From positions 124,001-188,000 of the forward strand of contig NZ_AUGO01000002.1 of NCBI RefSeq assembly GCF_000422705.1: a stretch of DNA of 64,000 nt, read 5' to 3'. A program made the position numbers and the translations under genes. Below the pieces are notes generated by a model. The model did no database searches and was not told the DNA's origin. It worked only from the letters and a program-made list of their open reading frames with translations. The stretch comes from Flavobacterium soli DSM 19725 (GTDB lineage: Bacteria > Bacteroidota > Bacteroidia > Flavobacteriales > Flavobacteriaceae). Positions 3,609 through 49,510 of this stretch are shown one piece after another (position 1 is the first letter of the stretch; each line of letters starts with the position of its first letter).

Positions 3609-5612
3609 ATGACAAGCAACTCAGATTTTGGAAGTATTTCATTTGATTTACCTAAAAACCAATCAAATGTAATTAAAGTAATCGGTGTAGGTGGAGGCGG
3701 TAGCAACGCCATCAACCACATGTTCCAGCAAGGCATCAAAGGAGTAGATTTCATCGTTTGTAATACTGATTCTCAGGCATTGCAAAACAGTTCTGTTCCT
3801 AATAAAATTCAGTTGGGTGTAAACCTTACTGAAGGTCTTGGAGCTGGAGCAAATCCGGAAGTTGGACAACAATCAGCAATCGAAAGCATTGCCGATATCG
3901 AGAAAATGCTCGACAGCAACACCAAGATGGTTTTCATCACTGCAGGAATGGGTGGTGGAACAGGAACGGGAGCTGCTCCAGTAATTGCTCAATTGGCAAA
4001 AGAAAGAGATATCCTAACGGTTGGTATCGTGACCATTCCTTTCCAGTTTGAAGGGAAAGTGCGTCAGGAACAAGCGCTTTTAGGTGTGGAAAGACTAAGA
4101 AAGCAAGTAGATTCACTTATCGTGATCAACAATAATAAGCTAAGAGAAGTTTACGGAAATCTTGGTTTCAAAGCTGGTTTCTCTAAGGCTGACGAAGTTT
4201 TGGCAACTGCATCTCGCGGTATTGCCGAAGTAATCACGCACCACTATACCCAAAACATCGATTTAAAAGATGCCAAAACGGTATTGTCAAACAGCGGAAC
4301 TGCCATTATGGGTTCTGCCATTTCAAGTGGCGAAAACAGAGCGAAAGAAGCAATTATTTCTGCTCTAGACTCTCCATTATTGAACGACAACAAAATCACA
4401 GGAGCCAAAAACGTATTGTTGCTTATCGTTTCTGGAACCAATGAAATCACGATTGACGAAATCGGAGAAATCAACGACCATATTCAGGTTGAGGCAGGTC
4501 ACAACGCCAATATCATTATGGGAGTTGGTGAAGATGAATCTTTGGGCGATTCAGTTGCCGTTACCATTATTGCTACAGGTTTCAATGTTGAACAACAAAA
4601 TGAAATAGTAAATACAGAGCCAAAAAAGATTATCCATTCTTTGGAAGATGAGCAAAAATTGACACACAATTTGTCTCAAAAAGTGATTGAGTCATTCGAC
4701 TTTTCAGCCCCAATTCCATCCGCAAAGAATGATGAAAAAATCGTTCACGATTTGATGGAAGACGAACCAACTTTTGAGCAGCCTCTAATTGTAGAAGCAG
4801 TAAAAGAAGAGCCTCTTTTCGACATGCCTTTGTTTACAGAGCCAGTTGCTAAAGAAGAGCCAGCTTTTGAATACAATTTGGTTCCAACAACCGAGTTTAT
4901 CAAGAATCTAGATGTGACTTTCGAAATCGTTTCGCCATCGGCTTCAAAGCCAGTTTCTTCAGATGATTTCTATTTCACTTCACCAGAAGTTAAGGAAATC
5001 GAAGTTCGTGAGCCAGAATTTGTAGTTCGTGAAGAAGAGCAAATCACTTTTTCATTCGATTTGCCAATCAGCAAGGTAGAGAAACCAAACGAGGACAGAA
5101 TGCTTTTCGAATTAACAAACGAAACGCGTGAAATCAAGGTAAACCAACCCGTTCAAGTAGTTCCAATGACCGAGTTGAACGAAAATGGTGTAATCCGTTA
5201 TTCTTTAGAGGAATATATGGAAGTCGAAAACAGCCTTTTGGAGTCGAAACCAGTTGCGAAAGTAGCAGAGCCAGAAAACGAAGAGTTGAAAATCACGATG
5301 AAAGTGAACGAACCTTCTAATTTTGGAAACAACTACGAAGCCATTTCTCCAACCGAAATGTCTTTGGAAGAAGCCTCAAGATTAAGAGCCGACGAAAGAA
5401 GAAGAAAGTTGAAAGAATTCAACTATAAATTTCACAACAATCCGTCTAGAGTAGAGGAATATGAAAAAGAGCCGGCTTACAAGCGTCTCGGAATCGACAT
5501 TTCAAGTACTCCTGCAAACAATAATAAATCCCGAACTTCATTGGGGACTGATAGTAACGATGACATTCAGTTACGTTCCAACAATTCATTCCTTCACGAC
5601 AACGTGGATTAA
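3609..5612 (+). CDS. ftsZ: Cell division GTPase FtsZ with long C-terminal extension
   Basis: A 667-residue tubulin-like GTPase forming the cytokinetic ring. The GTPase core covers about residues 20-320, with the nucleotide-binding start IGVGGGGSNAINHM (25-38) and the tubulin signature GGGTGTG (115-121). The T7-loop region around NVEIDLKDAKTVL-type sequence (IDLKDAKTVLSNSG) is present. Residues about 330-590 form a long acidic, Glu/Pro/Val-rich linker, and the protein ends in a conserved tail (EPAYKRLGIDI, then SFLHDNVD) typical of flavobacterial FtsZ, which is far longer than the roughly 380-residue E. coli protein. A strong terminator follows at 5638. No promoter was identified between it and the accessory insert upstream. 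Confidence 0.97.
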   Translation: MTSNSDFGSISFDLPKNQSNVIKVIGVGGGGSNAINHMFQQGIKGVDFIVCNTDSQALQNSSVPNKIQLGVNLTEGLGAGANPEVGQQSAIESIADIEKMLDSNTKMVFITAGMGGGTGTGAAPVIAQLAKERDILTVGIVTIPFQFEGKVRQEQALLGVERLRKQVDSLIVINNNKLREVYGNLGFKAGFSKADEVLATASRGIAEVITHHYTQNIDLKDAKTVLSNSGTAIMGSAISSGENRAKEAIISALDSPLLNDNKITGAKNVLLLIVSGTNEITIDEIGEINDHIQVEAGHNANIIMGVGEDESLGDSVAVTIIATGFNVEQQNEIVNTEPKKIIHSLEDEQKLTHNLSQKVIESFDFSAPIPSAKNDEKIVHDLMEDEPTFEQPLIVEAVKEEPLFDMPLFTEPVAKEEPAFEYNLVPTTEFIKNLDVTFEIVSPSASKPVSSDDFYFTSPEVKEIEVREPEFVVREEEQITFSFDLPISKVEKPNEDRMLFELTNETREIKVNQPVQVVPMTELNENGVIRYSLEEYMEVENSLLESKPVAKVAEPENEELKITMKVNEPSNFGNNYEAISPTEMSLEEASRLRADERRRKLKEFNYKFHNNPSRVEEYEKEPAYKRLGIDISSTPANNNKSRTSLGTDSNDDIQLRSNNSFLHDNVD

Positions 5613-5637: not shown

Positions 5638-5674
5638 CCCGAAAAATCCCTGTGATTTTCGGGTTATTTTTTTT
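5638..5674 (+). terminator. Rho-independent terminator after ftsZ
   Basis: The stem CCCGAAAAATC / GATTTTCGGG (one bulged A) with a short loop is followed by TTATTTTTTTTT. It lies 25 bases after the ftsZ stop. Confidence 0.85.
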
Positions 5675-5681
5675 ACCTTCG
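5674..5681 (+). promoter_or_regulatory. Possible -7 box (TACCTTCG) for the intergenic RNA-like element
   Basis: TACCTTCG differs at one position from the Bacteroidota -7 consensus TAnnTTTG. It lies directly after the ftsZ terminator and about 35-40 bases before the conserved part of the structured element, so it could drive it as an independent transcript. No clear -33 TTG is visible. Confidence 0.35.
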
Positions 5682-5689
5682 CATCCGGT

Positions 5690-5824
5690 TTGTGTAGCAT
5701 AATTAGGAGCGAAAGGTTAGGGCATTTGTTCAATCCATTTTCCTGCTGGAGCCACTCGCTTTAAAACTGTTAGTCACAGTTTTAAGAGCTCAAACAATGT
5801 CACCATCAGGGCTAGAGGGCAAAT
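5690..5824 (+). ncRNA. Structured intergenic RNA-like element, copy 1 (Flavo-1-like candidate)
   Basis: This non-coding stretch contains a conserved core also found on the minus strand at about 46756-46843. The 5' half (5731-5757) carries ATCCATTTTCC and GCTGGAGCCACT. The 3' half (5801-5814) carries ACCATCAGGGCTA. Between them is a stem-loop at 5758-5789 whose arms GCTTTAAAACTGT and ACAGTTTTAAGAGC pair with one bulge around the loop TAGTC. The two copies keep the flanking core but have different central stems that both fold, which is what a selected RNA structure looks like. It resembles intergenic elements common in Flavobacterium; identity with the Rfam Flavo-1 motif is a guess that needs a covariance-model search. 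Confidence 0.5.
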
Positions 5825-5842
5825 CATAAACTGCGAAGCGAC

Positions 5843-5915
5843 AATCTAAAATCAAAAATATGTTTTTTAGAATCATAAATCTAAAATCAGCAATCTAAAA
5901 TCTAAAATCTAAAAT
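5843..5915 (+). repeat. Short degenerate tandem repeat (AATCTAAAATC units)
   Basis: AATCTAAAATC-type units recur about five times (5843-5853, 5871-5915) immediately before the yqeY start. A related stretch, CAATCTAAACTCTAAAATT, is found before the tRNA at about 6414-6432. This is AT-rich simple sequence with no evident coding content. Confidence 0.6.
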
Positions 5916-5917
5916 AA

Positions 5918-6367
5918 ATGAGTCTTTCAGAAAGAATAATGGACGAAATTAAAAATGCAATGCGAGCCAAAGACACCGTTGCATTAGAATCTTTAAGATC
6001 TATAAAATCGGAATTGCTTTTAGCACAAACGGCATCCGGTTCAAAAGAGGAAATCACTGAAGACGAAGAAATAAAAATCCTGCAACGTCTAGTAAAAACA
6101 AGAAAAGAAAGTGCAAGAATCTTCACGGAGCAAAACCGTATGGATTTGGCAGCACCAGAGTTGGCACAAGTTGCAGTAATCGAAAAATTCCTTCCACAAC
6201 AACTCTCTGAAGCAGAGGTAGAAGCTGTTATCGCAAAAATCATAGCCGAAACAGGAGCATCGGGAATTGCATCAATGGGAAAAGTAATGGGACTTGCTTC
6301 AGCACAATTAGGTGGAACAGCAGAAGGAAAAACAATATCCACAATCGTAAAAAAATTGTTGACATAA
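5918..6367 (+). CDS. GatB/YqeY domain-containing protein
   Basis: A 149-residue protein covering the full YqeY family length. It starts SLSERIMDEIKNAMRAKD, has the basic helix LRSIKSELLLAQ and the C-terminal domain KFLPQQLSEAEVEAVIAKII, followed by GKVMGLASAQLGGTAEGKTIS. The family shares its helical tail domain with the GatB subunit of the tRNA amidotransferase and is thought to interact with tRNA or assist amidation, but its exact role is unsettled. It stands alone between the structured intergenic element and tRNA-Arg. In many Flavobacteriia it follows ftsZ, which fits here. Confidence 0.9.
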   Translation: MSLSERIMDEIKNAMRAKDTVALESLRSIKSELLLAQTASGSKEEITEDEEIKILQRLVKTRKESARIFTEQNRMDLAAPELAQVAVIEKFLPQQLSEAEVEAVIAKIIAETGASGIASMGKVMGLASAQLGGTAEGKTISTIVKKLLT

Positions 6368-31508: not shown

Positions 31509-31778
31509 TTATTTTCTAATACCCAATTCTTTGATAATCTCACGGTATCTGTTGATTTCCGTTTTCTTAAGATAATCTAGTAAGCTTCTTCTTTTACCTA
31601 CCAATTTCACCAATGAACGCTCTGTATTATAATCGTGACGATTTTTTTTCAAGTGACCAGTTAAGTGGTTGATTCTAAATGTGAATAAAGCGATTTGCCC
31701 TTCAGCAGATCCAGTGTTTTCAGCTTTTCCTCCGTGTTTAGCGAAGATTTCTTCTTTAACTTCTTTAGTTAAGTACAT
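31509..31778 (-). CDS. rpsO: 30S ribosomal protein S15
   Basis: Full-length at 89 residues. S15 binds the central domain of 16S rRNA early in 30S assembly. Conserved family sequence includes GSAEGQIALFTFRINHLTGHLKKNRHDYNTERSLVKLVGKRRSLLDYL-type stretches (for example INHLTGHLKKNRHDYNTERS and LVGKRRSLLDYLKK). It is followed on the same strand by pnp after a terminator-like hairpin and a second hairpin. Confidence 0.98.
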   Translation of the reverse strand: MYLTKEVKEEIFAKHGGKAENTGSAEGQIALFTFRINHLTGHLKKNRHDYNTERSLVKLVGKRRSLLDYLKKTEINRYREIIKELGIRK

Positions 31779-31853
31779 GCTAATATTGTTTAATGATTAT
31801 TATGTAGTGAATAAGTTCGTCTTATTCGAGTGCAAAAGTAACCATTATTTTGG

Positions 31854-46722: not shown

Positions 46723-46738
46723 TCCCGAAGCTTCGGGA
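46723..46738. terminator. 16-bp perfect palindrome at the 3' end of the RNA-like element
   Basis: TCCCGAAGCTTCGGGA is a complete palindrome lying just beyond the conserved core of the minus-strand element, so it could fold into a hairpin ending that transcript. It lacks a clear U tract. Confidence 0.4.
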
Positions 46739-46755
46739 CAAATGGATTTTCAAAT

Positions 46756-46843
46756 AGCCCCGATGGTTGCTACTATCCTTTTGTGGCGGTCCCGACGCTT
46801 CGGGAGCATAAAAGATAGTGGCATCCAGCGGGAAAATGGATTC
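46756..46843 (-). ncRNA. Structured intergenic RNA-like element, copy 2
   Basis: On the minus strand this reads AATCCATTTTCC, GCTGGATGCCACTATC, then a central stem, then AACCATCGGGGCTA. The flanking core matches copy 1 at 5690-5824 (ATCCATTTTCC, GCTGGAGCCACT and ACCATCAGGGCTA). The central stem is different: TCCCGA/TCGGGA (46790-46805) inside a longer pairing of ACTATCTTTT with AAAAGGATAGT. The gap from 46463 to 46990 holds this element, the palindrome, the 17-mer repeat and the topA promoter; no gene was seen in it. Confidence 0.5.
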
Positions 46844-46963
46844 ATGATAATCACTATCGATTTGCTTCTAATGAAAATAAAAAATCTTTATATTTTAGGA
46901 CGTTGGAAATCAGCGAATTTGAATTAAAAAAAATCTAAAAACGCAATATTTAAAAAATTCACA

Positions 46964-46990: not shown

Positions 46991-49510
46991 ATGGCAAAGA
47001 ATTTAGTGATAGTTGAGTCGCCTGCGAAGGCAAAAACCATAGAAAAATTTTTAGGAAGCGATTACCAGGTGGAGTCCAGTTATGGGCACATTGCAGATTT
47101 GCCTTCCAAGGAAATAGGGGTAGATGTGTTAAATGGGTTTAAGCCGAAATATGAAGTTTCCCCTGATAAAAAAGCGTTGGTGACGAAGCTAAAAGGACTT
47201 GCCAAGAAAGCCGATATGGTTTGGTTGGCGAGTGATGAGGACCGTGAGGGAGAGGCCATTTCGTGGCACTTGTCTGAGGAATTGAACTTGAAGTCAGAGA
47301 ATACAAAAAGGATTGTTTTTCACGAGATTACCAAAACGGCCATTTTGAAGGCGATTGATAATCCGAGGGGAATTAATTATGACTTGGTAAACGCTCAGCA
47401 GGCGAGAAGGGTTTTGGATCGATTGGTGGGTTATGAACTTTCGCCTGTGCTTTGGAGAAAAATAAAAGGCGGTTTATCGGCGGGAAGAGTCCAGTCGGTT
47501 TCGGTGCGATTGATTGTGGAACGCGAAAGAGAAATCCAGAATTTTAAAGCGGTTGCAAGCTATTCTGTCGTAGCTGAATTTGCCAATGAAGCGGGAAAAA
47601 CCTTCAAGGCAAAATTGCCAAAGAATTTTAATACGAAGAAAGAAGCCGAAGATTTTTTGAATAAAAATATTGGGTCTATATATAAGGTAGCGGATTTGGA
47701 AACAAAACCTACCAAAAAATCGCCTGCAGCACCGTTTACAACTTCGACTTTGCAACAGGAAGCGGCGAGAAAATTGTATCTTCCGGTAGGAATCACGATG
47801 CAGTTGGCACAACGTTTATACGAAGCCGGTTTGATTACCTATATGAGAACGGACAGCGTGAACCTTTCGGCAGATGCTATGAATGCAGCAGAAGCTGAAA
47901 TCATTAAATCGTATGGAAAAGAGTTTTCAAAACCTAGAAGTTTTGTAACGAAAAGCAAAGGAGCTCAAGAAGCTCACGAGGCGATTCGTCCGACGGATAT
48001 GTCGCGTCATACTGTGAATATCGACAGAGATCAAGCGCGTTTGTATGATTTGATTTGGAAAAGAACGTTGGCTTCCCAGATGAGCGATGCTCAATTGGAA
48101 CGAACCAATGTGAAAATCGAAGCGAACAATCACAGAGAATTATTTGCAGCAACTGGAGAAGTTTTGCTTTTTGAAGGTTTCTTGAAAGTATATCTTGAAG
48201 GAAGTGATGACGATGATGAAGAACAAGAAGGAATGTTGCCTGCGATGAAAGTGAATGAGAAATTACAAAATAATTTTATCACAGCAACAGAACGATATAC
48301 AAGACCGCCGGCAAGATATACGGAAGCTTCTTTGGTGAAGAAATTGGAGGAACTGGGAATTGGCCGTCCGTCAACTTATGCTCCAACAATTTCTACGATC
48401 ATCAACAGAAATTATGTTGAGAAAGGAAATTTGGAAGGACAGGAAAGAAATTATACGCAATTGACTTTGCAATCTGGAAAGTTAGGTGAAAAAATGTTGA
48501 AGGAAACTACAGGTTCTGACAAAGGAAAATTGGTGCCGACAGATATTGGAACAATTGTTACTGATTTCTTGGTTAAGAATTTTGAAAGAATCCTGGATTA
48601 TAATTTCACAGCAAAAGTAGAACAGGATTTTGATGAAATTGCAGAAGGAAATGTGAATTGGGCAAAAATGATGCAGGAATTCTACGATCAGTTTCATCCT
48701 AATGTGAAAGATGTAGAGGCAAATGCTGAAAGAGAATCTGGGGAGAGAATTTTAGGTAAAGATCCAAAAACAGGAAAACCGGTAAGTGTTCGTTTAGGGA
48801 AATTTGGTCCGATGGCTCAGATTGGCGATGCGGAAGATGAAGAAAAGCAGTTTGCTAGTTTGATGAACGATCAGAATATCGGGAATATTACTTTGGAAGA
48901 AGCTTTGAATTTGTTCTTGCTTCCGAAAAATTTGGGAACACATAAAGGAGAAGATGTAGAAGTGAACAATGGCCGTTTTGGTCCGTATGTTCGTTTTGGA
49001 AAAATGTTTATTTCTTTACCGAAAGGAGAAGATCCATTGGATGTGACTTTTGAAAGAGCCAAAGAATTGATTGCTGAAAAAGAAGAAGCCGATGCTCCAA
49101 TTGCAACTTATAAAAATGAACCCGTTCAAAAAGGTGTGGGTCGTTTTGGGCCGTTCATCAAATGGAACGGAATGTTTATCAATGTAAGTAAGAAATATAA
49201 TTTTGACAATCTTTCACAATCGGATATTGTTGAACTGATTGAAGATAAGCTTCAGAAAGAAATTGACAAGGTTTTGCATCATTGGGAAGACGAAGGAATC
49301 AAAGTAGAAAAAGCTCGTTGGGGACGTTCAGTTATTACCAAAGGGAAAATCAAGATTGAACTGAGCAAGGATGTTGATGCGACGAAATTGACTTTGGCAG
49401 AAGTTCAGGAAATGATCGAGAAAAAGTCGCCTGCCAAAAAAACAGCAGCGAAAAAAACTACAGCCACTAAAAAGCCTGCTGCAAAAAAAGCAGTAGCCAA
49501 AAAGAAATAA
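46991..49510 (+). CDS. topA: DNA topoisomerase I
   Basis: An 839-residue type IA topoisomerase relaxing negative supercoils. The toprim domain starts MAKNLVIVESPAKAKTIEKFLG with SSYGHIADLP and ASDEDREGEAI. The catalytic region carries GLITYMRTDSVN (Tyr nucleophile in YMRTDS). The C-terminal part has repeated GRFGPYVRFG / GRFGPFIKWNG units instead of zinc ribbons, then a Lys/Ala-rich tail (AAKKTTATKKPAAKKAVAKKK) that resembles a histone H1-like DNA-binding tail. The arginase-like gene begins 3 bases after the stop. Confidence 0.97.
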   Translation: MAKNLVIVESPAKAKTIEKFLGSDYQVESSYGHIADLPSKEIGVDVLNGFKPKYEVSPDKKALVTKLKGLAKKADMVWLASDEDREGEAISWHLSEELNLKSENTKRIVFHEITKTAILKAIDNPRGINYDLVNAQQARRVLDRLVGYELSPVLWRKIKGGLSAGRVQSVSVRLIVEREREIQNFKAVASYSVVAEFANEAGKTFKAKLPKNFNTKKEAEDFLNKNIGSIYKVADLETKPTKKSPAAPFTTSTLQQEAARKLYLPVGITMQLAQRLYEAGLITYMRTDSVNLSADAMNAAEAEIIKSYGKEFSKPRSFVTKSKGAQEAHEAIRPTDMSRHTVNIDRDQARLYDLIWKRTLASQMSDAQLERTNVKIEANNHRELFAATGEVLLFEGFLKVYLEGSDDDDEEQEGMLPAMKVNEKLQNNFITATERYTRPPARYTEASLVKKLEELGIGRPSTYAPTISTIINRNYVEKGNLEGQERNYTQLTLQSGKLGEKMLKETTGSDKGKLVPTDIGTIVTDFLVKNFERILDYNFTAKVEQDFDEIAEGNVNWAKMMQEFYDQFHPNVKDVEANAERESGERILGKDPKTGKPVSVRLGKFGPMAQIGDAEDEEKQFASLMNDQNIGNITLEEALNLFLLPKNLGTHKGEDVEVNNGRFGPYVRFGKMFISLPKGEDPLDVTFERAKELIAEKEEADAPIATYKNEPVQKGVGRFGPFIKWNGMFINVSKKYNFDNLSQSDIVELIEDKLQKEIDKVLHHWEDEGIKVEKARWGRSVITKGKIKIELSKDVDATKLTLAEVQEMIEKKSPAKKTAAKKTTATKKPAAKKAVAKKK

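Follow-up and report, generated by a model that had tools for sequence, protein, structure and literature searches.

Flavobacteria carry a family of folded sequences, Flavo-1 (RF01705), that was described by Weinberg et al. in 2010; the accessible text of that paper (PMC2864571) gives it a common P1 helix, with TAGCCC on one side and GGGA on the other, around a variable hairpin. Rfam types the family as an sRNA, and a review ranks it among the most abundant sRNA families, no function being stated in the part of the article at hand (PMC9029176). According to the available portion of a transcriptome study of F. psychrophilum (PMC9723704), Flavo-1 matches lie sense or antisense to transcribed regions alike, many fall outside any such region, and several 5' transcribed regions coincide with a match. 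Other classes of repeats invite comparison. REP/BIME sequences and RAYT-associated repeats are likewise high-copy intergenic imperfect palindromes, and gene conversion has been suggested to take part in REP evolution (Higgins 1988, from its title as cited in PMC2267715). Flavo-1 differs from these repeats in having a core of about 76-144 nt made of several modules, and in that several high-copy Flavo-1 genomes have no detected Y1 transposase gene. MITEs are, like Flavo-1, short, non-coding, dispersed and mainly intergenic, but Flavo-1 has neither a target-duplication signal nor demonstrated transposase-like terminal repeats, and its sites are stable between close species. A further likeness comes from RNA hairpins created by template switching, for which the accessible text of PMC8794818 describes perfect stems that arise in one step and mimic compensatory change; that work concerns rRNA genes, whereas the sequences considered here are dispersed intergenic repeats whose interiors recur at many loci.

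The window, the whole stretch of 64,000 nucleotides analysed here from Flavobacterium soli DSM 19725 (the home genome), holds two elements of this kind. Copy 1 (5706-5814, minus strand, TAGCCC to GCTCC) lies between ftsZ (3609-5612, plus; Pfam PF00091, PF12327) and yqeY (5918-6367, plus; PF09424). Its putatively exchangeable interior, of subtype B, spans 5745-5807 (minus) and reads GATGGTGACATTG...CCAGC with a TTAAAACTG/CAGTTTTAA hairpin. The right arm (5706-5741, minus) ends in GCTCC and lies mostly beyond the Rfam model, and the weakly conserved left arm (5815-5850, minus), taken from the consensus of 67 long-class copies, has an approximate outer limit. Copy 2, of subtype A, runs from TAGCCC to GCTTC (46755-46868, plus), with a left arm in addition, and is followed by a DNA topoisomerase gene (46991-49510, plus; PF01131). 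A covariance model, R1, built from 56 home-genome copies with both window copies included, matches copy 1 at 5735-5817 and copy 2 at 46752-46839. Copy 1 has weak folding z-scores (RNA -0.83, DNA -2.44). For copy 2 the DNA fold is predicted to have a closing AGC/GCT helix around the two arms, which is absent from the RNA minimum-energy fold of the same strand.

The flanking blocks that the preliminary description had seen in both copies are present where it placed them, and a two-block pattern (CYGCTGGA-N30..60-ACCATCRGGGCTA) has 20 matches in the 4.0-Mb home genome against 0 for a backwards control, well above chance. The strand assignment of the preliminary description has to be reversed: copy 1 folds best on the minus strand and copy 2 on the plus strand. 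The central sequences, which it took for compensating variants of one stem, are instead the interior subtypes A and B, each of which recurs elsewhere in the genome. The window does hold two copies, but the element is longer than the blocks, and the home genome has at least 129 matches to R1, a lower bound obtained from 150 of 5558 candidates. The -7-like box TACCTTCG (5674-5681, plus), previously attached to copy 1, lies outside the element and belongs to the ftsZ-yqeY gap: any one of four close variants was found in 43 of the 56 gaps with no detected element, against 8 of the 24 with one.

Two 16-bp palindromes accompany copy 2, TCCCGACGCTTCGGGA (46790-46805) within its apical loop and TCCCGAAGCTTCGGGA (46723-46738) within its left arm. 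The latter is itself a repeat, with 48 exact sites in the home genome and 0 for a backwards control; 20 of these are no more than 100 bp from an R1 element, where uniform placement over the whole genome would give 0.47. It is found in loops, in arms and at the GCTCC end; at the ftsZ site, F. glaciei (L045) and F. sp. 11 (L058) have a variant of it within P1 in place of the ATG of relatives.

Rfam misses both copies at gathering thresholds and reports from the window just a tRNA and an S15-Flavobacteria ribosomal protein leader (31776-31840, minus, above its cut-off). At permissive settings both copies match RF01705, and on the strand read in the preliminary description they are reverse complements of Flavo-1, which upholds its suggestion of Flavo-1 or a close relative. 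Copy 2 scores 38.9 bits (E 1.8e-5) and copy 1 20.8 bits (E 1.7, alone not significant), so that by a score of at least 42 bits, the cut-off, neither is a member. Subtype A straddles this cut-off: six of its nine copies lie above it (47.4, 48.3, 42.8, 47.6, 42.7 and 50.2 bits) and three below (41.2, 39.3 and copy 2 itself), and a sister locus (L001) reaches 47.4. Copy 1 is a divergent relative of Flavo-1 and not a member by score. Subtype B is tied to the family by position, because three of its home-genome sites hold RF01705-like elements in the relative G638 (40.5, 38.2 and 36.4 bits, E 1.2e-5 to 1.6e-4, all under the cut-off), with flank homology that is two-sided at L018 and L010 and one-sided at L017. 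The home genome has at least 103 matches over the cut-off among the 110 listed, a lower bound with 150 of 1241 candidates scored. Strand and 76-nt core of the Rfam model agree with the elements found here; the differences are a subtype B under the cut-off, arms and a conserved GCTCC end beyond the model, interiors that vary at shared sites, and an sRNA typing that finds no support here. The home elements belong to a family of folded repeats that is already known, though without an explanation.

On the Flavo-1 strand the core reads TAGCCC(C/T)G-AT ... AGC(G/A)GGGA. Covariation, on which the preliminary description had staked its proposal of selected RNA structure, is strong. In a fitted alignment of 104 matches (100 distinct, eight of the matches from genome G042), 93.1% of the cells at 17 pairs are paired against 79.7% when shuffled, with 208 both-side changes against 51.8; an unfitted MAFFT alignment (A3) puts 92.0% of cells in pairs and yields 129 both-side changes, the shuffled value being 34.9. 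One P1 pair occurs as C-G in 56 of the 100 distinct rows, U-A in 25, G-C in 11, U-G in 4, A-U in 3 and otherwise in 1. The elements thus have the P1 helix of Flavo-1 with covariation, copies 1 and 2 being among the 56 training sequences. RNAalifold returned only 8 pairs from the full alignment, and the structure was set by hand instead.

Pairing is interrupted in a regular manner. P1 carries a nearly invariant A.G mismatch (out of 100 rows, 93 have the A and 98 the G). Two purine-rich 3x3 internal loops of the GNA/GGA type interrupt the classical interior, and in a further large subtype G.A oppositions extend over a longer run and leave one helix 61% paired; the mismatch and the purine loops are retained in most copies. 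Perfect arms, with loops of up to 20 nt allowed, exceed 16 nt in none of 118 home-genome cores. The Flavo-1 strand has 71 G.A oppositions against 9 T.C, and 25 G.U against 11 A.C (p 0.03 only), counts in which related copies are taken as independent and 68 of the 71 G.A fall in two column pairs, mostly of one subtype. From both excesses it follows that the Flavo-1 strand folds better than its complement.

The right arm beyond the Rfam model is absent, about 22-26 nt long, or longer, and ends in GCTCC or GCTTC. The conserved end, GCTCC(T), is often followed by a run of A. After the box the frequency of A rises to 0.6-0.8 and is back to background by position 13; five consecutive A occur in the first 14 nt in 56 of 100 copies, against a T-run in 5 (18 of 118 copies were dropped for a missing motif, a short flank or duplication). 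The run is seen in every gene context (17/24, 17/28, 19/41 and 3/7) and is weak after other closing motifs (8/27 after GGC, 3/14 after CGC). A 5' AGC and a 3' GCT could pair, as could GCC with GGC and GCG with CGC in other classes. Across 189 elements, AGC is accompanied by GCT in 97 of 127, GCC by GGC in 18 of 20, rows that come mostly from one orthologous locus, and GCG by CGC in 12 of 21, in classes picked after examples had been seen. The same table has 9 off-diagonal rows, 9 without a motif, 23 in which the decoy TGC comes first, and 21 with another 5' triplet.

Only 7 of 120 home-genome copies overlap a called ORF, in a window that is 92% coding. Among the 118 copies with two neighbours, 50 are antisense to both genes, 31 are sense to both, 30 lie between divergent and 7 between convergent genes. 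The scarcity in convergent gaps is near what gap lengths in the window give (651 bases convergent against 1192 divergent; 310 against 1019 for gaps of 100 or more). A rule of gene orientation, suggested by the first 80 copies (38 antisense to both against 17 sense to both), weakened at 118 copies to p 0.045 and was dropped; a contrast between subfamilies gave p 0.21 at 118 copies. Orientation counts are not far from what intergenic lengths give, with no clear gene-orientation rule, and the placement agrees with the both-sense and out-of-transcript matches in the accessible part of PMC9723704. A replication-strand bias was rejected in the one-contig genome G042 (34 plus against 30 minus, permutation p 0.63), as was a recurrent neighbour gene acting as an autonomous partner, no Pfam family being shared by more than 3 of the 118 neighbour proteins surveyed, out of 233 available. 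In G042, two rRNA operons (L203, L204) are framed by a pair of elements: one of the GCG class stands in sense orientation 95 nt past the 5S rRNA, and one of the TAGCCC class, antisense, 660-720 bp upstream of 16S; match spacing and sequence suggest the same bracketing at L205 and L206. At L184, two elements stand 40 bp apart in opposite orientation (1076-1163, minus; 1204-1287, plus), in a BIME-like arrangement. The occurrence of Flavo-1 is patchy: it was found in 92 of 101 genomes of the genus, with 0 to at least 41 matches per genome, and in 38 of 296 across the phylum. One pattern tried against viral contigs had no exact match.

Sites shared between genomes show how the elements change. Among 80 ftsZ-yqeY loci gathered via YqeY, most titled Flavobacterium and the home YqeY matching named Flavobacterium records at up to 91%, R1 matches the gap in 24, and every match has the minus orientation seen in the window. 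The interiors vary, at about 77, 100 and 143 nt, the window copy being an 83-nt R1 match of class B. Constant strand and varying length indicate that site and orientation are kept while the interior changes. Degenerate remnants missed by R1 were recognized by eye at some of these loci, and no element was detected in the gap of F. johnsoniae and others like it. F. turcicum and F. erciyesense, a close pair with 74 and 76 R1 matches, were compared over four contig pairs at 26 loci: six with unequal scores or an apparent absence in one species, and the 20 others. The element is present in both species at 25 of the 26, with L212/L213 not alignable and no clear empty site among them, and strand and subtype agree in all of the 20. 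Eight discordant loci, two of them on other contigs, were inspected, L220/L221 and L228/L229 being left out. At one, the 3' arm has been rewritten in full and now complements the 5' arm perfectly, giving 34-nt perfect arms and a loop of 16 against 8 nt in the sister. Elsewhere the interior is replaced (L214/L215), a loop palindrome and a right arm are gained (L218/L219), the apical hairpin differs (L224/L225), a 22-nt difference in the right arm had made the element seem absent (L210/L211), or the changes are mainly substitutions (L222/L223, L226/L227). Presence against absence of 123 bp, at 80% flank identity, separates L087 from F. johnsoniae L071. A 2.9-kb stretch with a boundary at the GCTCC end is also present or absent between L098:6195 and both L075:9060 and L090:9165; the difference resembled excision of a cassette, and a second element at the other end was not seen.

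Subtype B shows the same separation within one genome. Out of 398 genomes of the genus, 5 contain its pattern with at most one mismatch: the home genome has 13 matches, G638 has 5, G016 and G646 have 2 each, and G578 has 1, which does not resemble an element. The interiors of 11 home B copies are 93.3% identical, and 98.7% in the nine with the same hairpin, against 55.3% for left arms, 69.4% for right arms and 54.5% for outer flanks. The left-arm value is background, so that similarity drops abruptly at the P1 boundary. When the flanks of ten home B loci were sought in G638, nine were found, that of L020 over only 54 bases; comparison of whole loci gave two-sided homology at L008, L009, L010, L016, L018 and L020 and one-sided homology at L003, L011 and L017. 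Five of the six two-sided sites, and L017, are occupied in G638, four of these occupants having been found by R1 and two by eye. No element was detected there at the L008 site (L285), where other sequence lies between two conserved neighbours, nor at L003 and L011. Over the six shared sites interior similarity is 0.93 within the home genome, 0.63 at the same site across genomes and 0.62 between different sites. Left arms compare at 0.60 for the same site against 0.54 for different ones and right arms at 0.63 against 0.62, and the arms are too diverged from G638 to prove their descent. Two of the G638 occupants are perfect palindromes, of 27 and 35 nt. A third interior stands at the L018 site in G646 and at the L016 site in G578, both with two-sided homology, and yet another at the L003 site in G578, with one-sided homology. 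Copies 1 and 2 of the window are best read as ordinary sites now carrying amplified interiors, B and A respectively.

Flavo-1 as a structured RNA, an sRNA or UTR element in keeping with its Rfam typing, with a fold that acts after transcription and copies that are separate regulatory RNAs, would suit the strand-specific fold and covariation, the single orientation in 24 of 24 detected cases (24 of 80 gaps) at the ftsZ-yqeY site, the coinciding 5' transcribed regions in the available part of PMC9723704, and the GCG-class copy that follows 5S in the rRNA sense in two rrn operons of G042. It is nonetheless an unlikely account of the family, which follows no clear orientation rule (50, 31, 30 and 7 copies), exceeds 100 copies with bursts of near-identical interiors, and has no Pfam family recurring beyond 3 of the 118 neighbour proteins surveyed; the same portion of PMC9723704 has matches in both senses and many outside transcripts. 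Nor need pairing imply an RNA gene, because orthologous alleles show it being rewritten by palindrome correction and interior replacement. The selection on RNA structure proposed in the preliminary description thus survives as constrained structure, with covariation in its favour, but not as an RNA gene, its strand being wrong, its box unrelated and a clear orientation rule lacking. Some sites may still have an RNA role, for which the rrn placement in G042 leaves room. A classical non-autonomous mobile element, REP or MITE, with copies inserted in trans by, for example, a Y1 (RAYT) transposase, would explain high copy number, intergenic location, patchy occurrence, subtype bursts, the 123-bp case and the L008 site at which G638 has no detected element between conserved neighbours. 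We regard it as quite improbable. Four genomes with at least 41 Flavo-1 matches (G004, G019, G029, G030) have no detected Y1 gene, and Y1 mobilization as a general cause was rejected, the gene being found in 64 of 101 genomes, among them 4 of the 9 with no Flavo-1; the element does not depend on a Y1 transposase. The two home Y1 genes (L021:1441-1950 and L022:1396-1857) are flanked not by Flavo-1 but by different short REP-like repeats of their own, of CCGGATTAAAATCCGG and ATCCCGTAGGGATGACA type, unrelated to it. In 78 long and 22 short copies the longest word shared by the flanks equals that of shuffled pairs, giving no sign of target duplication, with the reservation that long-class ends are not sharply known. 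Strand does not change along the G042 chromosome, nearly all close-pair loci are occupied in both species, B-burst copies share an interior and not a left arm, and six sites of the young subtype hold other interiors in the sister genome.

Alternatively, Flavo-1 could be purely a product of mutation, with template switching making and spreading palindromes whose fold is not selected. Perfect palindromes with arms of 27-35 nt do occur at three loci where relatives have mismatched arms, and the accessible text of PMC8794818 offers a precedent. Such palindromes are the signature of template switching, polarized here by the family consensus only, and pairing can accordingly be rewritten in a single DNA step. 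As a complete account this is already disfavoured, and very improbable: mutation alone would tend to make all copies perfect palindromes, whereas no home core has perfect arms above 16 nt, the A.G mismatch and purine loops persist in most copies, and a strand bias is not expected of a strand-symmetric process. The absence of long perfect arms therefore points to mismatched internal motifs kept against palindrome-making, which is why selection is invoked.

The explanation we favour, at about even confidence, is that Flavo-1 elements are dispersed intergenic DNA repeats with fixed outer parts, whose interiors are exchanged by conversion and template switching. The folding strand would extrude as single-stranded DNA during replication or repair, and template switching could then rewrite one hairpin arm from the other. 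Strand exchange through the short identical P1 blocks may copy the interior of one element into another, in the manner of gene conversion, and selection on the folded strand, or a putative binding protein, would preserve the internal non-Watson-Crick motifs. New sites would be gained rarely. No conversion event with donor and recipient states both known was caught in the compared genomes; interior exchange would be mimicked by successive insertions into the same spot accompanied by loss of the earlier element, and the conserved G.A loops would fit an RNA role equally well. A more tentative and somewhat doubtful extension of interior exchange is that the P1 blocks (TAGCCC..GAT and AGC.GGGA) are docking sites for a cassette drive in which stem-loops displace each other via single-stranded DNA and interiors spread across the genome as they overwrite the residents of fixed sites, the outer parts being inherited vertically. 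In the literature searched, which leaves out most subscription journals, no description of the interior exchange, the arms or the A-run was found.

The pattern of fixed sites and changing interiors is directly testable in cultured Flavobacterium. If the cassette drive is real, it would amount to mobility within a genome that needs no insertion. If interiors move at the DNA level, covariation alone, the usual evidence for functional RNA, would be unsafe for high-copy palindromes, and many of the Rfam Flavo-1 sRNA matches in Flavobacteria would be structured repeats.
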